A stretch of 64,000 nt of DNA from assembly GCF_013372285.1 (NCBI RefSeq), contig NZ_CP054301.1:2156001-2220000 (forward strand), read 5' to 3'. Position numbers and translations under genes: made by a program. The notes under the pieces are model-generated. The model did not search any database, was not told the origin of the DNA, and saw nothing but the letters and a program-made list of their open reading frames with translations. This document shows, piece after piece, positions 8,990-64,000 of this stretch. Every line of letters starts with the position of its first letter. Within the stretch, counting starts at the first letter, position 1. This DNA comes from Marinomonas primoryensis (GTDB lineage Bacteria; Pseudomonadota; Gammaproteobacteria; Pseudomonadales; Marinomonadaceae).

Positions 8990-9065
8990 TGGCGTCCCGT
9001 AGGGGGTTTGAACCCCTGTTACCGCCGTGAAAGGGCGGTGTCCTAGGCCACTAGACGAACGGGAC
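8990..9065 (-). tRNA. tRNA-Glu (UUC), copy 1
   Basis: 76 bases including encoded CCA. The minus strand begins GTCCCGTTCGTCTAG and has the anticodon stem CCGCCC-TTTC-ACGGCGG, so the anticodon is TTC. It is the array copy nearest pabC. It differs from the other five Glu copies at 9047 (GGCC instead of GGTC in the D-loop). Confidence 0.97.
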
Positions 9066-9115
9066 ACAACATTTTATTGCATTAATTATCTACTTTCTGA
9101 CCACTCAATATAAAG

Positions 9116-9191
9116 TGGCGTCCCGTAGGGGGTTTGAACCCCTGTTACCGCCGTGAAAGGGCGGTGTCCTAGACCACTAGACGAACGGGAC
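9116..9191 (-). tRNA. tRNA-Glu (UUC), copy 2
   Basis: 76 bases, CCA encoded, anticodon TTC. First member of the 279-bp Glu-Gly repeat unit. Confidence 0.97.
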
Positions 9192-9250
9192 ACTGTTTAG
9201 TTTTGAGAAAACTATAAACAATCACATCGCGTTATCGCTAACATCGATGT

Positions 9251-9325
9251 TGGAGCGGGAAACGAGGCTCGAACTCGCGACCCCAACCTTGGCAAGGTTG
9301 TGCTCTACCACTGAGCTATTCCCGC
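9251..9325 (-). tRNA. tRNA-Gly (GCC), copy 1
   Basis: 75 bases on the minus strand, beginning GCGGGAATAGCTCAG and ending CCCGCTCCA; the anticodon loop CTTGCCAAG gives anticodon GCC. Confidence 0.97.
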
Positions 9326-9394
9326 ATTACTAACCGCTCTACTCTATTCAAGCGATTTACGATCTCTATTTATAAAATAAAGCACCATAAATAA

Positions 9395-9470
9395 TGGCGT
9401 CCCGTAGGGGGTTTGAACCCCTGTTACCGCCGTGAAAGGGCGGTGTCCTAGACCACTAGACGAACGGGAC
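9395..9470 (-). tRNA. tRNA-Glu (UUC), copy 3
   Basis: 76 bases, same sequence as copy 2, exactly 279 bases further on. Confidence 0.97.
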
Positions 9471-9529
9471 ACTGTTTAGTTTTGAGAAAACTATAAACAA
9501 CCACATCACGTTATCGCTAACATCGATGT

Positions 9530-9604
9530 TGGAGCGGGAAACGAGGCTCGAACTCGCGACCCCAACCTTGGCAAGGTTGTGCTCTACCACTGAGCTATTC
9601 CCGC
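9530..9604 (-). tRNA. tRNA-Gly (GCC), copy 2
   Basis: 75 bases, same as Gly copy 1, 279 bases further on; CCA encoded. Confidence 0.97.
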
Positions 9605-9673
9605 ATTACTAACCGCTCTACTCTATTCAAGCGATTTACGATCTCTATTTATAAAATAAAGCACCATAAATAA

Positions 9674-9749
9674 TGGCGTCCCGTAGGGGGTTTGAACCCC
9701 TGTTACCGCCGTGAAAGGGCGGTGTCCTAGACCACTAGACGAACGGGAC
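9674..9749 (-). tRNA. tRNA-Glu (UUC), copy 4
   Basis: 76 bases, same sequence as copies 2 and 3, 279 bases further on. Confidence 0.97.
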
Positions 9750-9808
9750 ACTGTTTAGTTTTGAGAAAACTATAAACAACCACATCACGTTATCGCTAAC
9801 ATCGATGT

Positions 9809-9883
9809 TGGAGCGGGAAACGAGGCTCGAACTCGCGACCCCAACCTTGGCAAGGTTGTGCTCTACCACTGAGCTATTCCCGC
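9809..9883 (-). tRNA. tRNA-Gly (GCC), copy 3
   Basis: 75 bases, same as Gly copies 1 and 2; CCA encoded. Confidence 0.97.
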
Positions 9884-9952
9884 ATTACTAACCGCTCTAC
9901 TCTATTCAAGCGATTTACGATCTCTATTTATAAAATAAAGCACCATAAATAA

Positions 9953-10028
9953 TGGCGTCCCGTAGGGGGTTTGAACCCCTGTTACCGCCGTGAAAGGGCG
10001 GTGTCCTAGACCACTAGACGAACGGGAC
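9953..10028 (-). tRNA. tRNA-Glu (UUC), copy 5
   Basis: 76 bases, same sequence as copies 2-4. Confidence 0.97.
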
Positions 10029-10087
10029 ACTGTTTAGTTTTGAGAAAACTATAAACAACCACATCACGTTATCGCTAACATCGATGT

Positions 10088-10162
10088 TGGAGCGGGAAAC
10101 GAGGCTCGAACTCGCGACCCCAACCTTGGCAAGGTTGTGCTCTACCACTGAGCTATTCCCGC
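10088..10162 (-). tRNA. tRNA-Gly (GCC), copy 4
   Basis: 75 bases, same as the other Gly copies. The spacer on its promoter-proximal side (10163-10219) differs from the others. Confidence 0.97.
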
Positions 10163-10219
10163 AATAACTTCTCATTCACAGAAATATAGGTAAACTATAC
10201 AACCACCTGTATATAAAGA

Positions 10220-10295
10220 TGGCGTCCCGTAGGGGGTTTGAACCCCTGTTACCGCCGTGAAAGGGCGGTGTCCTAGACCACTAGACGAACGGGAC
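10220..10295 (-). tRNA. tRNA-Glu (UUC), copy 6
   Basis: 76 bases, anticodon TTC. It is the promoter-proximal gene of the minus-strand array. Upstream on the minus strand is GATTATAACG, a possible -10 element just before the tRNA 5' end; no convincing -35 was found. Confidence 0.97.
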
Positions 10296-54511: not shown

Positions 54512-55924
54512 TCATTTGCTATTCGTTAAAATAGGAAGTTTAACTTGAACGGTTAGGCCTTGAGGTAACGAATCCTCAAAAGAAAGAACACCTTGGTATT
54601 TGTCTACAATATTTTTAACAATAGACAACCCAAGACCAGCGCCTTCCACTTCTCCTGATCGAAAAAAACGTTCGCTCAATCTATTCCTGTCTTGTTCAGA
54701 AATTCCTGTACCTGTATCAATCACCTTTAACTCAACTTGCATGGCAGTTTGCGCCCAGACCACTTTAATCACTGAGCCATTAGATGAAAACTTAATCCCG
54801 TTACTCATTAAGTTTTGTAATAGTATTTCGATATGGCTAGGTTCAACAAAACAATACCAAGGCAAGCTATCATCAACATTAAGAACAATGTCAATGTCTC
54901 GCTTCCATGCTAAAGGAAGAATATCTGCAATCATCGAGCGAGTAATTGCCAAGACATCGACCTTTTCCTTAACAGCGTCTTTTTGATGCTCAAGACGCGC
55001 TAGAGCCAGTAACTGAGACACAATTCGAGTGGAGCGATCGACCCCAGATGTAAGCTGTTTTAGCGATTGATTTCGTTCTGTATCATTGTTGGCTGATGTC
55101 GCATTTTCAGCATGCACCTTTAAAATACTTAATGGGGTTCTTAGTTCATGGGCGGCATCGGCGATCCAACGTTTTTCGCGTTTCATCAACACATCAATTT
55201 CTACTAAAAGGCCATTCAAAGCGTTTTTAACTGGAACCAGCTCCTCAGGAACATCAGACATTTCAATCGGCTCTAACTTTGTCGGTGTAATTTTATTTAT
55301 TCGTTGAGCTAACTGCTGTAAAGGCTCAAGACCAAAACCAACCGCAGCCCAAACAAGCACCGCCAAAATAGGCCAAGCTAATAGCTCAGGAAACAGTGTT
55401 TGAAAAACAATTTTATCTGAAATTTCTCCTCTCACATCTGCACGCTCTGCAACAATAATCCTGACATCCCCAACCGTTTGTTCTAGCGTAAAAGTACGCC
55501 ACTGATAGTGATCAGACATGGCATAACCGTAGCCAAAGTCGCCTTTTTTATGCTCAGTGAGGGATATCGAATCTGAAGCGATTTTGAGTTTATCCATACT
55601 CCAAATCTGATAAAATATTTTACTTTCGTACTTATGACCAACGCTGGAATCGGTATTTGCTTGATCAATAAATAAGGGCGACAAGATATCTAAATTTGCA
55701 CTTATACTTTCAACGTTTTCGGATAAAGTGAGCAGCAACCTTGCTTGTTGAGCCAACCGCGCATCAAACAACTCTTCGACTTCATGGTTAGCGAATAACA
55801 ACCCAATCAACATGATAGCTATACTGGTTAGGGTAAAAACCAGCATCACAAAAAAAAGCGTTCTTCTTCGAATTGAGCTGAGTAACTGGCTTTTAACCCA
55901 CGTCTTGATCGACCACATAGCCAA
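54512..55924 (-). CDS. QseC/PmrB-like sensor histidine kinase
   Basis: 470 residues. Two membrane helices (~22-46 and ~180-198) flank a ~130-residue periplasmic sensor region. A HAMP-like linker, the phospho-acceptor His259 in AADAAHELRTPLSILKVHAE, and the ATPase domain (NLMSNGIKFSSNG, DTGTGISEQDRNRLSERFFRSG, GAGLGLSIV) follow. The start overlaps the regulator gene. It is the third gene of the dsbD operon. Confidence 0.9.
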   Translation of the reverse strand: MAMWSIKTWVKSQLLSSIRRRTLFFVMLVFTLTSIAIMLIGLLFANHEVEELFDARLAQQARLLLTLSENVESISANLDILSPLFIDQANTDSSVGHKYESKIFYQIWSMDKLKIASDSISLTEHKKGDFGYGYAMSDHYQWRTFTLEQTVGDVRIIVAERADVRGEISDKIVFQTLFPELLAWPILAVLVWAAVGFGLEPLQQLAQRINKITPTKLEPIEMSDVPEELVPVKNALNGLLVEIDVLMKREKRWIADAAHELRTPLSILKVHAENATSANNDTERNQSLKQLTSGVDRSTRIVSQLLALARLEHQKDAVKEKVDVLAITRSMIADILPLAWKRDIDIVLNVDDSLPWYCFVEPSHIEILLQNLMSNGIKFSSNGSVIKVVWAQTAMQVELKVIDTGTGISEQDRNRLSERFFRSGEVEGAGLGLSIVKNIVDKYQGVLSFEDSLPQGLTVQVKLPILTNSK

Positions 55925-56576
55925 TGCCTCGTATGGTGCGAATTAATTCAGGGAACAGCTTCTTACGCAAATGATGGATATGCACTTCTAACGCATTGCT
56001 TTCTACATCATCGCCCCAGCCATACATCAACTGTTGAAGTACGTCTCTGGTAAATACATGTCCAGGCTGACTAATAAGCTCATGCAGTAAGGAATATTCT
56101 CTTCGGGTAAGATTGATATCCCTGTCTTGATAAATCACTTTATGACTCGCGGGATACAACACAAGTCCTTTGTAATGAATCTCACTGATCGCGCGCCCAT
56201 AACTACGTCGTAATAACGCCCGTGCCCGTGCTTTCAGCTCAGTCACATCAAAAGGTTTAACAAGATAATCATCTGCACCTAAATCCAAACCAGCCACCCT
56301 ATCTTCTAAGGCATCTCTGGCGGTAAGAATTAAAACAGGCACGCTATTTTCATTGGCACGCAGTTGCTTAAGTACAGCTAAGCCATCCAGTCTTGGCAAA
56401 CCCAAATCCAACACAACTAAATCAAACACTTCGTTCGCCAATGCCTCCAAAGCATGAATCCCATCATGGAGTAAATCAACCGTATAACCTTCCCGTTTTA
56501 AGGCGGTAACAAGGCCGTCCGCTAACGAAAGATCATCTTCTACAACCAGTATGCGCAAACCTATTCCTTCTTTCAT
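55893..56576 (-). CDS. QseB/PmrA-like response regulator (OmpR family)
   Basis: 227 residues from the ATG that overlaps the dsbD stop (ATGA). A TTG at 56558, six codons in, has AAGGA upstream and would give MRILVVEDD with the phospho-acceptor at the family-typical Asp51, so it may be the real start. Receiver domain: VVEDD, VVLDLGLPRLDG, LTARDA and VKPFD. The winged-helix domain ends in VEVHIHHLRKK-like SNALEVHIHHLRKKLFPELIRTIRGIGYVV. It probably binds the CTTAAK-type boxes at 58441-58490. Confidence 0.92.
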   Translation of the reverse strand: MKEGIGLRILVVEDDLSLADGLVTALKREGYTVDLLHDGIHALEALANEVFDLVVLDLGLPRLDGLAVLKQLRANENSVPVLILTARDALEDRVAGLDLGADDYLVKPFDVTELKARARALLRRSYGRAISEIHYKGLVLYPASHKVIYQDRDINLTRREYSLLHELISQPGHVFTRDVLQQLMYGWGDDVESNALEVHIHHLRKKLFPELIRTIRGIGYVVDQDVG

Positions 56577-58393
56577 AAGTTTGCCAAGGTTAATTGCAGC
56601 ATGCTGTTAAATTGTGCTAAATCCATTTCACCTTGGCGAACGTTGATCAAATCACCATTAGAGGAAAAGAATAACAGAGTTGGTGGCCCAAATACGCCAT
56701 ATTTTGATAAAAATGCTTGCTGAGCAGGCGTATTTTCAGTGAGGTCAAGCTGCAAAAATGAGATATTATTTGAATAGGCTTTTAGATCACTATTACTAAA
56801 GACATCCTTTTCCATTTCTAAGCAAGCAGTACACCAATCCGCATACATATCCACCACCACAACTTTTCCATTATCCTTAGCCTGTTGCATTGCATTTTCG
56901 ATAAGCGCAGGATCTTGCATACGATTAAATAAAGACTGTTTCTCAATCGAATTGACGTCACCTGTTACAGAGGAAAAATAACCTAATGGCTTGTCTAAAC
57001 TGGGCTTTCCTGCCAAGCCAGAAGTCAACAATGCCGCGCCGTATATTAATAAAATCAACGCAAAGCCTTGACGAGTTTTTCCCCAGCTCTTATCGCCAGA
57101 CTGAAAAGGAGAAAGATGTACCGAATAGACAATACAAAGTATGGCCCATAAATACACACTAAGCGTTTCCGACACAATTCTTGATACCAAAACAATTGCC
57201 ACACCTAGTAAAATCACACCGAATGCGGCTTTGACTTGCATCATCCACATACCTGCCTTCGGTAGATACTTACCACCACCCAAACCAACAAGTAATAAGG
57301 GTATCCCCATTCCCAAACTCATCGCAAACAACACACTGCCGCCAAGCAGAGCATCACCTGTTGTACTGATATAGATTAATGCACCGGCTAATGGTGCAGA
57401 GACACAAGGTGAAACAATCAGCGCAGAAATAGCACCCATTATACCGACACCAAGATAAGGGCCACCGGCACTTTTTTGACTTAGCCGATCAAGCCTGTCT
57501 CGAAGAAACATAGGTAACTGTAATTCATAGAAACCAAACATCGACAAAGACAGCAAGACAAACAACACACTAAAACCAATCAATATACTGGGCGCTTGAA
57601 ACAAAGCCTGAAGGTTCAGTTGCGCACCAAAAATTCCGACTAACACTCCTGCCATACTGTAAGAAAATGACATCCCTAGGACATATGATAGGGATAAGAA
57701 AAAACCTTTCTTAGCGGTAATATTGCCTGCTTGACCCGCAATGATACCCGCTAAGATTGGAATCATCGGCAATACGCACGGTGTAAAAGTAAGACCTAAG
57801 CCTAAAACAAAAAAAGTAACCAATACCCAAAAACGATCACCGTTTAACAACAACTTTACGAGCTGCCCTTCTTCTGCTTCGGATGATGTTTCTGACTCAG
57901 TAGAAAATGAGTTCTTCGCGAATGCAATTGGCACTGCTGCAACTTTTTGGTCAGGCGTTGCAGCATGATTAAATGACACAATTTTGGTTTGCGGTGGATA
58001 ACACAGACCTGCAGCGGCACAGCCTTGATACGTTACCTTTAGCTCATCCATATTTTCGCCGACTGGATCAATAACAATCACCATTCGATTATGAAAAACC
58101 TGCACTATGCCAAAATTTGGATCGTCTTTAACGTCAGATTTCGTCAGAAAATGAAACGGTATGGAGACCGTTTTATCATTAGCCAAAACAACTTTTACAC
58201 GCGATTCATACAAATAATAACCATCAGAAATCGTCCATTGCACTTCTCTTTTTACCGTATCAAGTTGCAATTGAAACGCTTCAGATGGTTTCAAAAAATC
58301 ACTATCAGCAAAAGCAGGGACCGCCAAAATCACAGCGAAACAAGAGCCTATTAGCCATTTAATTAACCTAAAAGACATGAAAGAAGTCGTCAC
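56573..58393 (-). CDS. dsbD: Thiol:disulfide interchange protein DsbD
   Basis: 606 residues from a GTG with AAGGA at proper spacing; the signal peptide ends near VPAFA/DS. The alpha domain has the Cys pair in GCAAAGLCYPP, the eight-helix membrane domain has FTPCVLPMIPIL and VSPCVSAPLAGAL, and the gamma domain has the thioredoxin motif ADWCTACLEME. It carries electrons from cytoplasmic thioredoxin to periplasmic proteins. It is the first gene of an operon with a two-component system, an unusual partnership, and is divergent from a TlpA-like thioredoxin. Confidence 0.95.
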   Translation of the reverse strand: MTTSFMSFRLIKWLIGSCFAVILAVPAFADSDFLKPSEAFQLQLDTVKREVQWTISDGYYLYESRVKVVLANDKTVSIPFHFLTKSDVKDDPNFGIVQVFHNRMVIVIDPVGENMDELKVTYQGCAAAGLCYPPQTKIVSFNHAATPDQKVAAVPIAFAKNSFSTESETSSEAEEGQLVKLLLNGDRFWVLVTFFVLGLGLTFTPCVLPMIPILAGIIAGQAGNITAKKGFFLSLSYVLGMSFSYSMAGVLVGIFGAQLNLQALFQAPSILIGFSVLFVLLSLSMFGFYELQLPMFLRDRLDRLSQKSAGGPYLGVGIMGAISALIVSPCVSAPLAGALIYISTTGDALLGGSVLFAMSLGMGIPLLLVGLGGGKYLPKAGMWMMQVKAAFGVILLGVAIVLVSRIVSETLSVYLWAILCIVYSVHLSPFQSGDKSWGKTRQGFALILLIYGAALLTSGLAGKPSLDKPLGYFSSVTGDVNSIEKQSLFNRMQDPALIENAMQQAKDNGKVVVVDMYADWCTACLEMEKDVFSNSDLKAYSNNISFLQLDLTENTPAQQAFLSKYGVFGPPTLLFFSSNGDLINVRQGEMDLAQFNSMLQLTLANL

Positions 58394-58424
58394 TTAATGT
58401 TCCTTAATATACGTTGATTGAGCC

Positions 58425-58457
58425 ACTATAAATAAGAAACCTTAAGCAAAACTTACG
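58425..58457 (-). promoter_or_regulatory. PmrA/QseB-like box and -10 of the dsbD operon
   Basis: On the minus strand, CGTAAG-TTTTG-CTTAAG is followed after exactly 10 bases by TATAGT. The repeat fits the tandem YTTAAK-N5-YTTAAK arrangement with one mismatch and takes the place of a -35. Confidence 0.6.
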
Positions 58458-58473
58458 TCTTGTATTTTTGACA

Positions 58474-58506
58474 CTTAATTTTCCCTTAAGAAAGATACCG
58501 TACTAT
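58474..58506 (+). promoter_or_regulatory. PmrA/QseB-like box and -10 of the tlpA-like operon
   Basis: On the plus strand, CTTAAT-TTTCC-CTTAAG is followed after exactly 10 bases by TACTAT, about 30 bases before the start codon. Both half-sites match YTTAAK. Confidence 0.65.
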
Positions 58507-58535
58507 TTCCAATATACTTTATTTGGAAGCAAGCC

Positions 58536-59072
58536 ATGATCAAATATCAAAAACACGTCTTGATAGCCGCGCTCTCTAGCTGCCTATTCTTTTCTTCCAG
58601 CCTGTGGGCAAGCGAACTAATATCAGCCGCCAAGGCTAAAATTGCGCCTCATCAAACTGTGTACTTACCCGAATACCAAACCAACAAACAAATATCATTA
58701 GGCATGGAAAAAGACCAAGTGCTACTGGTGGATTTTTGGGCTTCATGGTGTGGACCTTGCCGAGAGTCCTTTCCATGGATGACGAACATCCAAGCTAAAT
58801 ACAAGGCACAAGGTCTGAAAGTCATCGCGATTAATCTGGATCAAGAAAAAGACCAAGCCTTAGATTTCTTAAAAGAGTTTAAACCTGGCTTTTCCGTATT
58901 ATTTGATACCGACGCCCAGCTTCCAGAAGACTTTGGCGTCATTGGCATGCCTACCAGTTTTTTGATTGATCGTCAGGGAAAAATTAGAGCAACACACGTC
59001 GGTTTTCACGAAAAAAACATAGCGGATTATGAATCGGCTATCACTGAGTTATTAGCGGAAAAAGGGGAATAA
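58536..59072 (+). CDS. TlpA-like periplasmic thioredoxin
   Basis: 178 residues. The signal peptide is ~1-25 (SSLWA/SE). The thioredoxin fold of the TlpA/ResA type has Cys72-Gly-Pro-Cys75 (DFWASWCGPCRESFPWM) and the cis-Pro in VIGMPTSFLIDRQG. It likely receives electrons from DsbD, encoded divergently. It is the first gene of a four-gene operon, with DUF4266 3 bases downstream. Confidence 0.92.
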   Translation: MIKYQKHVLIAALSSCLFFSSSLWASELISAAKAKIAPHQTVYLPEYQTNKQISLGMEKDQVLLVDFWASWCGPCRESFPWMTNIQAKYKAQGLKVIAINLDQEKDQALDFLKEFKPGFSVLFDTDAQLPEDFGVIGMPTSFLIDRQGKIRATHVGFHEKNIADYESAITELLAEKGE

Positions 59073-59075
59073 CAG

Positions 59076-59300
59076 ATGCAAAAAACAATCAGCATAATCA
59101 GTTTGCTTACCCTGTCTATTGTTTTAGCGGGTTGCAGCGATCTTGGAGTGAAACCCTGGGAACGTGATGTACTTGCCCAGCAAGAAATGAATTTAATCAG
59201 TGATCCTATCGAAAGCAGTTTGAACGATCACATCTATTTTAGTAAAGAAGCCAGTAGTGGCGGACAAGGTTTCGGAGGTGGTGGCTGTGGCTGTAACTAA
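59076..59300 (+). CDS. DUF4266 lipoprotein with Gly/Cys tail
   Basis: 74 residues. Lipobox L-A-G-C puts the lipidated Cys at residue 20. VKPWERDVLAQQEMNL, DPIESSLNDHIYFSKEASSGG and a Gly-rich end G-G-G-G-C-G-C-N (Cys71, Cys73) match the DUF4266 family. Function unknown; the tail could bind metal or be a thiol substrate of the adjacent thioredoxin (inference). It overlaps the next gene. Confidence 0.88.
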   Translation: MQKTISIISLLTLSIVLAGCSDLGVKPWERDVLAQQEMNLISDPIESSLNDHIYFSKEASSGGQGFGGGGCGCN

Positions 59301-60594
59301 AACAACGCAAAAAAATCAAGATCTGGCGCGTTTATTAACCGCAGCCAGCTGTGCATTAATTGGCAGCCTATCAGCAAGCGTTAATGCTGCAGATAACTGG
59401 GATGTCGATTCTGCGTTCCTGCTTTATTCAGAAAGCGACGGACGAGTTTCTGCTGCCGAACCAGTGATTAGTGCCACTAAAAACTATGACGAAGAAACAA
59501 AGCTTAATATCAAACTGGCTGCTGATACGCTAACGGGTGCATCACCGAATGGCGCTACACCAAGCGACCAGGTTCAAACCTTCACAAGCCCTTCAGGTAA
59601 AGGCTCTTACGCCGCCACCGCTGGTGAGCAACCTCTAGACGATACTTTTAAAGATACTCGCATTGCCCTTTCAAGCAATTGGTCAGCACCAATAGATCGT
59701 GATTGGGCATACGGTGTTGGCGGCTACCTTTCAAAAGAGCACGACTACCAATCTCTTGGTCTAAATGGCAACTTGTCACGTTATCTCAATCAGAAGAACA
59801 CCACACTTACCTTGGGTGTAAACCTGTCTAGTGACAGCATTAACCCTGAGGGCGGCGTAGCAACAGGATTAGTGCAAGTACCACTAAGCAGCTCAGACAG
59901 TGAATTTACTCAGCGTACAGATTCTGAGAATAAAAGCCTTGTTGATGCGGTTTTTGGGGTAACACAAGTCATTAACCGCAAAACTATTATGCAATTTAAC
60001 TATGCATTGAGTACAAGTTCTGGTTATCTAACCGACGCTTATAAAATCATCTCTGTAATAGATGATAGTGCTGGCAGCAATTATGGTGGTAATTACCAAA
60101 GCAGCGGACGTAATCTTTACCTATACGAAAAGCGGCCAGACTCACGCCTAAAACAAAGTCTTTATTGGCAAACAAAATATCAATTTGATAACAACGACAT
60201 ACTCGATGTGAGCTATCGATACATGTTTGATGATTGGGGTGTCAACTCGCATACCATAGATGCCAAATATCGATTCCGTTTTGACAACCAATATCTAGAG
60301 CCGCAACTTCGTTGGTATACTCAGAGCAAGGCCGACTTTTATCATCGTTATTTAAACTCAAGTGATTACTCAAGCGCTGAATTTGCCAGTGCAGACTATC
60401 GATTAGGGGATTTAGATACCTACACCATTGGTTTAAAATATGGCTATCAGTTTGCCGATGAAACTGAATTTTACACCCGGTTTTCTCTATATCATCAAGA
60501 AAGCTCTGGCGACAAAGGTTATGGGAAGTTGGCAACACAGGAACTCTATCCTGGTTTAGATGCTGCAATGCTAATTGTTGGCTATAAATTTTAA
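59287..60594 (+). CDS. DUF3570 protein, predicted outer-membrane beta barrel
   Basis: 435 residues from the GTG at 59287, which has GGAGG eight bases upstream; it overlaps the DUF4266 stop by 14 bases. A signal peptide ends near SVNA/AD. The remainder alternates like beta strands and ends in a Phe (LIVGYKF), as outer-membrane barrels do. Asp80-T-L-T-G-A-Ser86 fits the ApbE flavinylation consensus D-x-x-[ST]-G-A-[ST]. The partner DUF4266 and ApbE genes are typical for the family. Substrate and role are unknown. Confidence 0.85.
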   Translation: MAVTKTTQKNQDLARLLTAASCALIGSLSASVNAADNWDVDSAFLLYSESDGRVSAAEPVISATKNYDEETKLNIKLAADTLTGASPNGATPSDQVQTFTSPSGKGSYAATAGEQPLDDTFKDTRIALSSNWSAPIDRDWAYGVGGYLSKEHDYQSLGLNGNLSRYLNQKNTTLTLGVNLSSDSINPEGGVATGLVQVPLSSSDSEFTQRTDSENKSLVDAVFGVTQVINRKTIMQFNYALSTSSGYLTDAYKIISVIDDSAGSNYGGNYQSSGRNLYLYEKRPDSRLKQSLYWQTKYQFDNNDILDVSYRYMFDDWGVNSHTIDAKYRFRFDNQYLEPQLRWYTQSKADFYHRYLNSSDYSSAEFASADYRLGDLDTYTIGLKYGYQFADETEFYTRFSLYHQESSGDKGYGKLATQELYPGLDAAMLIVGYKF

Positions 60595-60601
60595 CTAAAT
60601 A

Positions 60602-60628
60602 CACCCTCTACCAAAAAGGTAGAGGGTG
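60602..60628 (+). other. Intercistronic hairpin before apbE
   Basis: CACCCTCTACC/GGTAGAGGGTG, an 11-bp perfect stem with an AAAAA loop, with no T tract after it. It may reduce read-through or protect the upstream mRNA. Confidence 0.55.
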
Positions 60629-60646
60629 ATCATTCACCGGAAAGCC

Positions 60647-61606
60647 ATGACTTTTATTGAAGAATTAATTATTGATTCGTCGTTCAACCTAAGCAAGCAC
60701 CCGAACCCAAGTCTGTGGCGAGAAGGTAAGCACACTTATCAAATAAAGTTTGAATGTATGGCAAGTAACTGTTCCATACTGATTGAATGCGAAGCGTTAG
60801 AATTAGTTAAGACAGCGGCAAAAAATGCCATTATTGAAGCCTGGAGAATTGAGTACAAATACAGCCGCTATCAAAAAAAAAATACCTTTTCAGACATACA
60901 CTCCACACCAGATTGCTGGCAAAAGCTAGACAATGAAAGTGCACAATTGATGATTTTCGCCAACCAAGCCTACAACGCCTCGCAAGGATTATTTGATATA
61001 ACATCAGGCATCTTAAGAGAAGCATGGACCTTTAATGGTAACGACAAGTTACCACTACAAAACCAGATTGACGCTCTCTTACCCTATGTCGGTTGGAAGA
61101 AATTAGCTTGGAGTACTGAAGCGCCTGAACAACTAAAAATGCCATTAGGCATGGAATTAGATTTTGGCGGCATTGGCAAAGAATACGCAGTGGATAAAGT
61201 ACTCACCATCTGTTGTCAGACCCTGGCCAGCAAGTCTGCCGCCATCTTAGTTAACTGCGGTGGCGATCTTACCTGTAGTGGCGTAAGACTAAACGGAGAA
61301 AGCTGGAAAGTCGGCATTGAATCGATTTCCCGTCATAATAAAGCCCAGCAGATAATCGCTCTATCATCCGGAGCACTCGCCACATCAGGGGACAGCAAAC
61401 GCTTTCTATTAAAAGATGGCATTCGTTATTCTCATGTATTAAACCCAATCACTGGTTGGCCCATTACAGACGCACCGAGAAGTATCACTGTCGCCGCTCC
61501 AACTTGCATCAACGCAGGCATCATCGCTACACTCGCCCTATTACAGGGAAAACACGCAGAAAGCTTCTTAGCATCGATAAAAACCCCTTACTGGCTATAT
61601 AACTAA
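60647..61606 (+). CDS. FAD:protein FMN transferase (ApbE family)
   Basis: 319 residues from the ATG at 60647. ApbE motifs: MELDFGGIGKEYAVDKV, LVNCGGDLTCSG, GALATSGDSKRF and YSHVLNPITGWP, where the His/Asp-type metal and flavin residues lie. ApbE enzymes attach FMN to Thr/Ser of target proteins. Unlike the common periplasmic lipoprotein type, no signal peptide or lipobox is visible, so it looks cytoplasmic. It is the last gene of the operon, 52 bases after DUF3570. Confidence 0.9.
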   Translation: MTFIEELIIDSSFNLSKHPNPSLWREGKHTYQIKFECMASNCSILIECEALELVKTAAKNAIIEAWRIEYKYSRYQKKNTFSDIHSTPDCWQKLDNESAQLMIFANQAYNASQGLFDITSGILREAWTFNGNDKLPLQNQIDALLPYVGWKKLAWSTEAPEQLKMPLGMELDFGGIGKEYAVDKVLTICCQTLASKSAAILVNCGGDLTCSGVRLNGESWKVGIESISRHNKAQQIIALSSGALATSGDSKRFLLKDGIRYSHVLNPITGWPITDAPRSITVAAPTCINAGIIATLALLQGKHAESFLASIKTPYWLYN

Positions 61607-61690: not shown

Positions 61691-61701
61691 ATTAATTAAA
61701 T

Positions 61702-61815
61702 CTTGATAACGACCTACTCTCACATGGGATCTCCCACACTACCATCGGCGATGGCGCTTTTCACTTCTGAGTTCGGGATGGGATCAGGTGGTTCAACGCC
61801 TCTATGATTATCAAG
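61702..61815 (-). rRNA. 5S ribosomal RNA, distal copy
   Basis: About 114 bases, minus strand: CTTGATAATCATAGAGGCG... through CCCGAACTCAGAAGTGAAA to GGTCGTTATCAAG. The ends pair as helix I. Confidence 0.93.
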
Positions 61816-61904
61816 AAAACTTTATAGATCTTGCGATCAATTCTTACACTTTTTAAAACCAATATAGTTAGGTTTATAAAAGGAGCTAAGCTCAAAATTT
61901 TAAG

Positions 61905-62018
61905 CTTGACGACGACCTACTCTCACATGGGATCTCCCACACTACCATCGGCGATGGCGCTTTTCACTTCTGAGTTCGGGATGGGATCAGGTGGTTCAAC
62001 GCCTCTATGATCGTCAAG
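61905..62018 (-). rRNA. 5S ribosomal RNA, proximal copy
   Basis: About 114 bases with the same core as the distal copy but helix I changed to CTTGACGATC...GTCGTCGTCAAG. Tandem 5S genes separated by an 89-base spacer. Confidence 0.93.
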
Positions 62019-62251
62019 CAATTCTGCTGCGTTCGTTCTGGCGGTTTCTTAAGATTATAATTTCTATCATCTCTTTCTTCCTACCAAAACACGCGAAGAC
62101 ATGCTTGGATCTTTAACAATTCTTTTTTGAAATAACGGTAATCAAGGTCAAACCAGTTTTATCGTAATGTGTCTCTGTAATCTTTGATGCATTTGCTTAG
62201 AGTCTTTTTCATTCTCTCTTCACTTATCATCTAAAACCACTTTGGTGTTAT

Positions 62252-64000
<1,749 letters not shown>

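Follow-up and report, generated by a model that had tools for sequence, protein, structure and literature searches.

A probable DsbD/DUF3570 flavinylation system of Marinomonas primoryensis with a predicted two-component promoter switch

What turns on a DsbD-fed flavinylation system, and what is the system for? The question is raised by two head-to-head operons at positions 54512-61606 of a 64,000-nucleotide stretch of Marinomonas primoryensis DNA (contig NZ_CP054301.1, positions 2,156,001 to 2,220,000), hereafter called the window. The leftward operon carries dsbD, a response regulator and a sensor kinase, the rightward operon carries tlpA, DUF4266, DUF3570 and apbE, and an intergenic region of 142 bp lies between them. 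The path that electrons would take through such proteins is already published; what is new here is a promoter switch that, by promoter comparison, the two operons probably share. We consider it reasonably probable that the locus as a whole is a DsbD/DUF3570 flavinylation system placed under a two-component switch. A preliminary description of this DNA, made from the letters alone, had placed dsbD in one operon with an OmpR-type pair, head-to-head with the other four genes. The positions of all seven genes were confirmed and their Pfam families agree with that layout.

54512-55924, minus strand: QseC/PmrB-like sensor histidine kinase, encoded at the end of the dsbD operon (Pfam HisKA, HATPase_c)
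55893-56576, minus strand: OmpR-type response regulator (PmrA/QseB-like; Pfam Response_reg, Trans_reg_C)
56573-58393, minus strand: DsbD, second paralogue (Pfam DsbD_N, DsbD_TM, Thioredoxin_7; genus distribution)
58536-59072, plus strand: TlpA/ResA-like exported thioredoxin (Pfam Redoxin, AhpC-TSA, Thioredoxin_8; hydrophobic N-terminus)
59076-59300, plus strand: DUF4266 lipoprotein (Pfam PF14086, E 8e-23)
59257-60594, plus strand: DUF3570, predicted outer-membrane barrel of the ApbE-substrate family (Pfam PF12094, E 1e-135)
60626-61606, plus strand: signal-less ApbE, an FAD:protein FMN transferase (Pfam PF02424, E 4e-55; solved ApbE relatives)

The tight spacing that had been claimed is borne out by overlaps of 4 nt between dsbD and the regulator gene and of 32 nt between the regulator and kinase genes, and the DUF4266 and DUF3570 frames also overlap. 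Alternative starts are possible for dsbD (ATG 58378) and apbE (ATG 60647), and the start codon of DUF3570 is uncertain. The closest named relatives of the module are from Marinomonas, the DUF3570 protein of M. polaris being 89% identical. The regulator has its best NCBIfam scores with PmrA (245 bits, against a cut-off of 330) and QseB (213 against 345), below equivalog level, and is filed merely as PmrA/QseB-like; the kinase scores best with QseC (237 bits, under the cut-off of 475). The pair thus shares with the PmrAB/QseBC family its best scores and a PmrA-type box, and differs in scoring under the curated cut-offs and in its predicted targets, which are here a redox relay and metal genes.

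The switch is suggested by the intergenic region itself. A PmrA box consists of two CTTAAG-like half-sites with 5-bp spacing, as a passage of PMC3973317 gives it, and the region contains two such paired half-sites, each upstream of a -10 hexamer:

58441-58457, no strand: PmrA-type box on the dsbD side, one mismatch
58425-58430, minus strand: -10 of the dsbD promoter, TATAGT, 10 nt from the box, the same in 8/8 Marinomonas loci
58474-58490, no strand: PmrA-type box on the tlpA side, no mismatch
58501-58506, plus strand: -10 of the tlpA promoter, TACTAT, 10 nt from the box

No classic sigma-70 promoter was found in the intergenic region, which is expected since the promoters would be activator-dependent.

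To place these elements, the window was compared with the best 80 of 520 relatives of a window-built query, a gammaproteobacterial set that leans to near relatives. Boxes could be scored at 79 of the 81 loci, two having been dropped with <150 bp of upstream sequence on the contig. A no-mismatch box, defined as YTTAAK-N5-YTTAAK, stands upstream of the DUF3570 operon in 38/79 loci, compared to 0.19% of 14,944 random windows from the same loci (the two shuffle controls for boxes keep base composition only). It is present in 27 of the 31 loci with an adjacent PmrA/QseB-like regulator versus 11 of the 48 without (Fisher p 1.5e-8), and five of those 11 are Marinobacter. When loci are grouped by their assigned genus labels, the box is found in 10/13 lineages with an adjacent regulator versus 4/24 without (p 8e-4). 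A -10-like hexamer (A second, T sixth) follows exactly 10 nt downstream of the box in 35 of the 38 box loci.

The mirror promoter on the dsbD side was seen in 16 of the 20 loci with divergent dsbD. Its geometry is kept in 8/8 Marinomonas loci, all with TATAGT, where the box has one mismatch in six and two in the other two, and also in 4/4 Oceanospirillum loci; in 4/4 dsbD-bearing Marinobacter a single near-palindromic box serves both directions. It should be mentioned that one of the promoter surveys used only no-mismatch boxes and 12 hand-picked rows from six loci of the class sample (L174, L175, L177, L178, L180 and L181), and that some loci are not independent: L178 and L096 are one and the same stretch of contig, as are L198 and L038. 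From the association of box with regulator and the promoter architecture shared by both operons, we propose that the dsbD and tlpA operons are probably switched together. The architecture is established by comparison of sequences, and the regulator is predicted to bind the boxes. The preliminary description had named separate regulation of the two operons as an outcome that would speak against a joint module; a shared architecture is found in part of the family and is not a general rule.

The genus Marinomonas shows how closely the parts keep together. DUF3570 occurs in 15 of 48 Marinomonas genomes. A DsbD at 36-41% identity to that of the window is present in 47 of the 48, and the module-type DsbD (at least 48% identity) is present in 14 of the 15 DUF3570 genomes and in none of the 33 others, adjoining DUF3570 in all 14. 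In G395 the module DsbD is split in two and no second DsbD is listed. The fifteenth genome, G391, has a shortened DUF3570 beside fragments of dsbD, regulator and kinase (L198 6104-8212). The regulator is adjacent in 12 of the 15 DUF3570-bearing genomes; G388 keeps both boxes with its regulator located elsewhere, and G384 has neither box nor adjacent regulator. Four further genomes retain the regulator (at least 90%) without DUF3570. Among these lone pairs, L193 has a 78-aa dsbD remnant and a near-box, L191 has two near-boxes 33 bp apart and L192 has one, and no near-box was found close by at L190. In L198 the module is thus decaying as a whole, and L193 and L191 retain traces of it.

These genomes bear on the possibility that the two-component pair has no tie to the module beside it and that the boxes belong to a different regulator of the family. 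The pair does occur without DUF3570 in Marinomonas, and several box genomes have no adjacent pair. Against this, the box and the adjacent pair go together in both the locus and the lineage counts, the pair is transcribed from the box-bearing dsbD promoter, and remnants of a former module are left in two of the genomes with a lone pair. We regard an unrelated neighbour as very improbable.

Beyond the genus, a four-gene core is the constant part. Within 11 kb of DUF3570 we found DUF4266 at 79/81 loci, ApbE at 69/81 (one a fragment) and TlpA at 67/81, a co-occurrence beyond what chance would give. DsbD lies within this distance at 20/81 loci, any regulator at 38/81 and any kinase at 35/81. DsbD and the two-component pair are add-ons to the four-gene core. 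The pair is divergent behind dsbD in Marinomonas, Oceanospirillum, Marinospirillum and Saccharospirillum, divergent without dsbD in Oleiphilus and others, downstream in Colwellia, Pseudocolwellia and Cellvibrionaceae, and upstream in Glaciecola. Nearly all linked regulators belong to one PmrA/QseB-like family, which, at E 1e-45 or better, also occurs in 30 of the 56 class genomes that were sampled, whether or not DUF3570 is present. The preliminary description had held that random placement of dsbD and two-component genes around other DUF3570 clusters would count against it. The regulator genes are placed non-randomly in part of the family, and the association is not universal, with DsbD near only 20/81 loci and the family regulator adjacent at 31/79.

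An even draw of 369 class genomes gives the wider frequency. DUF3570 genes occur in 95 of the 369, and the 43 genomes with a full-length DUF3570 were taken as the sample. Among these, 24 hold 37 family regulators at E 1e-50 or better, and in eight (G000, G035, G143, G154, G239, G301, G346, G361) a regulator adjoins the DUF3570 operon or, where the contig ends, its tlpA; by our own arithmetic about 0.2-0.3 would be expected. G091, whose regulator lies ~5 kb away beside efflux genes, was left out of this count. All of the eight except G239 have a no-mismatch box. Only the dsbD layout forms one clade in the regulator tree (15 rows, support 100/99). We had expected one regulator family dedicated to the system; this was rejected, as linked and unlinked regulators intermix in the tree. 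The label "linked" changes eight times on it, which suggests that the switch was probably recruited more than once.

What the switch would control is in large part a published system. In Chlorobium luteolum, as the main text of PMC8238504 (Meheust et al. 2021) reports, ApbE attaches flavin to DUF3570 at two [S/T]GA[S/T] sites. The paper describes 285 flavinylation clusters with DsbD, typically together with DUF3570, a thioredoxin-like protein and a DUF4266 with a C-terminal CXC, the thioredoxin-like protein being of family PF13899 in 183 of them, and it puts forward a hybrid thioredoxin/flavin system that DsbD would feed. With this model in print since 2021, the earlier remark that the DUF3570 and DUF4266 genes have no assigned function is outdated for the flavinylation step. 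The window has the corresponding residues:

58749-58760, plus strand: TlpA CGPC active site
59286-59294, plus strand: DUF4266 C-terminal CGC, in the tail GGGCGCN
59524-59559, plus strand: flavinylation motif DTLTGASPNGAT, residues 90-101 of DUF3570 (conserved motif)

DsbD, DUF3570, DUF4266 and ApbE are found in a single cluster (PF02683, PF12094, PF14086, PF02424), and the DsbD has all three of its N-terminal, membrane and thioredoxin domains (Pfam, including PF02683). The TlpA has a thioredoxin fold by Pfam and the CGPC motif, and matches PF08534, PF00578 and PF13905, not PF13899. The cysteine tail claimed for DUF4266 is present, and the GGGCGCN C-terminus, which contains the CXC, recurs in 79/79 DUF4266 proteins. 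The motif D-x-x-[ST]-G-[AS]-[STA] is found in 81/81 DUF3570 proteins compared; across 45 sequences D90, G94 and G99 are invariant and the terminal Phe is nearly so. Of the two sites in the window the first, TGAS, fits [S/T]GA[S/T], and the second is NGAT. A search for solved structural relatives of DUF3570 gave none at E <= 1.

Some more distant DUF3570 relatives were also noted. One class, seen in L182 (6892-8037) and in many class genomes, matches the profile only from about position 100, and its L182 member has a DUF4266-like and a DsbD_2 (PF13386) gene as neighbours. Relatives of ~900 aa in L183, L184 and L185 have TlpA and ApbE genes nearby, with a DUF4266-like gene in L183 and L185. A DUF3570-ApbE fusion in these long frames was rejected, ApbE there being a separate gene.

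The system of the window shares with the DsbD-type DUF3570 system, as the main text of PMC8238504 presents it, the DsbD, a protein with a thioredoxin fold, the CXC-tailed DUF4266, DUF3570, ApbE and the proposed thiol-to-flavin transfer. In contrast to it, the window adds the regulator and kinase, the paired PmrA-type promoters, a second-paralogue DsbD and a signal-less ApbE. The route put forward in the preliminary description, from DsbD to the thioredoxin, the lipoprotein thiols and a flavinylated protein, agrees with the published model and its parts are present; the order of the steps stays conditional. In the switched system, an envelope signal would activate the kinase, and the PmrA/QseB-like regulator would bind both intergenic boxes and activate both divergent promoters. 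The leftward operon would then yield the second DsbD together with the regulator and kinase themselves, and the rightward operon the relay, that is, the TlpA-like thioredoxin, DUF4266 with its Cys-Gly-Cys end, DUF3570 and ApbE. Electrons would pass from cytosolic thioredoxin to DsbD, TlpA, the CGC tail and finally the FMN on DUF3570.

Where the FMN is attached is a separate point. The ApbE of Chlorobium was cut behind a signal peptide, according to the main text of PMC8238504. The ApbEs of the present clusters were examined with a hydrophobicity threshold, which is not a signal-peptide predictor, applied to the stretch ahead of the catalytic core (at most 60 in-frame residues). After three fragments scoring <350 were removed from 71 hits, 66 of the 68 counted showed no hydrophobic stretch ahead of the core, and in the remaining two the stretch lies mainly in an extension preceding the called start. 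Two further ApbEs are encoded in the M. primoryensis genome, one of which lies beside an Nqr-like gene and has a hydrophobic N-terminus, while the other bears a lipobox. The signal test was passed by TlpA in 65/67 cases and by DUF4266 in 73/79. For DUF3570 the hydrophobic-N-terminus test was passed by only 31/81, which points to a weak or short export signal, so that its export is itself a prediction; Tat export was set aside, an RR pair being found within the first 35 residues in only 12/81. The lack of an export signal on the cluster ApbE suggests that FMN is probably attached to DUF3570 in the cytosol and that the loaded protein would then be exported. A cytosolic ApbE acting on a soluble substrate is on record (PMC12052999); here the substrate is apparently exported.

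A strong hairpin (60602-60628, 11-bp stem, z -5) lies between DUF3570 and apbE in the window and covers the apbE GTG start. Stems of 9-13 bp and differing sequence occur at the same place in L031, L032, L035 and L037, and none in L033, L034 and L036. The hairpin may set the DUF3570-to-ApbE ratio.

The nature of the signal was approached through the kinase, for which comparison of sensor regions gave one feature.

55619-55639, minus strand: sensor signature GHKYESK, kinase residues 96-102 (GHxYExK comparison)

GHxYExK occurs in 14/15 kinases of the dsbD layout (the odd one having SHKYESK) and in 7/7 of the divergent layout without dsbD, compared to 0/9 in other linked layouts and 2/25 general-family kinases, one of those two being itself linked. 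At the level of a guess, the HxxE pair might bind metal. PmrB is a sensor of ferric iron.

The neighbourhood of the boxes gives a further hint. The M. primoryensis genome contains five CTTAAK-N5-CTTAAK sites, three of which have TANNNT exactly 10 nt downstream and facing a gene start; these belong to the tlpA operon, to the gene of a CDF cation exporter (called start 75 bp away) and to a cytochrome b561 gene (62 bp away). The other two sites lack such a hexamer, and one is inside a reading frame.

L142 345-1511, same genome: CDF cation exporter behind a PmrA-type box
L141 980-1477, same genome: cytochrome b561 behind a PmrA-type box

The CDF gene scores above the CDF superfamily cut-off (TIGR01297), with all equivalog scores under theirs. 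A cupredoxin gene (PF13473) comes after the regulator and kinase genes in Colwellia-like relatives. At L174 an EfeU/Ftr1-like permease follows the pair (NF041756 E 5e-16, under the cut-off), and its operon and the DUF3570 operon each begin at a perfect box. A ZIP-family gene is near the pair in several Marinomonas, and 25 of the 285 clusters counted in the main text of PMC8238504 contain the VIT1 iron transporter. The CDF, cytochrome b561, EfeU/Ftr1-like and VIT1 genes point to metal as the most plausible guess, with iron foremost, and weakly suggest that the system serves metal handling, iron first, by reduction at the cell surface. The metal role that the preliminary description had offered as one possibility thus gains from the CDF and EfeU/Ftr1-like genes behind the same type of box and stays conjectural. 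The P19/FTR1 iron clusters with FMN-binding proteins, as the main text of PMC8238504 describes them, likewise combine a flavinylated protein with an FTR1-family permease, and some lineages here also have a cupredoxin; unlike them, the permease of the present relatives is a divergent EfeU/Ftr1 homologue that is absent from the M. primoryensis genome. The fullest version of the metal idea is metal-switched electron export, in which a metal-binding HxxE kinase would act through PmrA-type promoters on a dedicated DsbD, a thiol relay and a metal exporter, with cytosolic FMN loading, export of the precursor and reduction of iron at the surface. We hold this version as tentative and somewhat unlikely.

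Copper offers another source for the signal. DsbRS of Pseudomonas aeruginosa is described in passages of PMC11195947, PMC10141476 and PMC12802237 as a copper-responsive pair controlling dsbDEG, and it is the nearest precedent for a two-component pair over a DsbD-type gene set, likened here by description only; no flavin protein appears in those passages. A similar response to copper or thiol stress would have the pair raise the DsbD-TlpA reducing branch, the flavin protein being a side sink or a copper reductase. The cupredoxin genes that follow the kinase in several loci, and SCO1 near the core in Thiodiazotropha, would fit such a response. Cysteine-based copper sensing was set aside for want of any cysteine in the sensor region of the window kinase, an absence that speaks only against a cysteine copper site. 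The permease beside the cupredoxin in L174 belongs to an iron family. In our view a DsbRS-like response is unlikely.

Other neighbours suggest periplasmic redox homeostasis with no surface acceptor. TlpA and the CGC tail would keep thiols reduced or repair proteins, and the FMN electrons would go to oxygen or a quinone-like oxidant. In six loci (L073, L075, L078, L085, L087, L089) MsrPQ-like genes (Ferric_reduct, Oxidored_molyb) are transcribed divergently from the DUF3570 operon, and the cytochrome b561 behind a box in the M. primoryensis genome is also compatible with this idea. However, none of the six MsrPQ loci has a regulator alongside, and the metal-transport genes behind boxes would be left unexplained. 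Such homeostasis is judged decidedly improbable.

The switched DsbD/DUF3570 flavinylation system also has to be weighed against a number of observations that speak against it. Class-wide, the regulator is adjacent in just the 8/43 genomes named above, and 28 of 29 sampled family regulators have no DUF3570 gene within 1.5 kb. The linked regulators are not one clade, at least four of the eight label changes being forced, and the kinases of other layouts lack the sensor signature. No no-mismatch box was found at four linked loci (L066, L088, L103, L109) or in G239 and G384, L069 (at a contig edge) has merely a one-mismatch box, and the dsbD-side -10 was not seen in L048, L049 and L053. The box is no commoner in the M. 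primoryensis genome than its reversed control (5 vs 3). Perfect CTTAAG-N5-CTTAAG is likewise not enriched genome-wide, with 10 sites in the 43 genomes versus 17 for the reversed control; five of the 10 are at DUF3570 or linked-regulator promoters (G143 twice, G035, G154, G346). The regulon is a predicted one, since the M. primoryensis genome has other regulators of the wider family that might act on this box. The second flavin motif, NGAT, departs from [S/T]GA[S/T]. As to function, FTR1 was not found in this genome, and other neighbours (MsrPQ; SCO1/CtaA) hint at other roles.

Outside the module, the cluster is followed at 61701-62400 by two consecutive 5S rRNA genes and then a 23S gene, and a ten-gene array of tRNA-Glu and tRNA-Gly lies at 8990-10295.

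Among the papers found, PMC8238504 is the only one whose main text treats DUF3570 and DUF4266. Mostly open papers, as main texts without supplementary tables, yielded no regulator for the DUF3570/DUF4266/ApbE-DsbD system: the terms "response regulator" and "histidine kinase" are absent from the main text of PMC8238504, and a term search of the available text of PMC11334425 showed no regulator for a DUF3570 system. DUF3570 is common. With a regulator whose promoter can be read, one could ask directly what activates the system, and the shared switch thereby offers a handle on what it is for. A signal-less ApbE with an apparently exported substrate would, in addition, alter the usual picture of flavinylation outside the cytosol.

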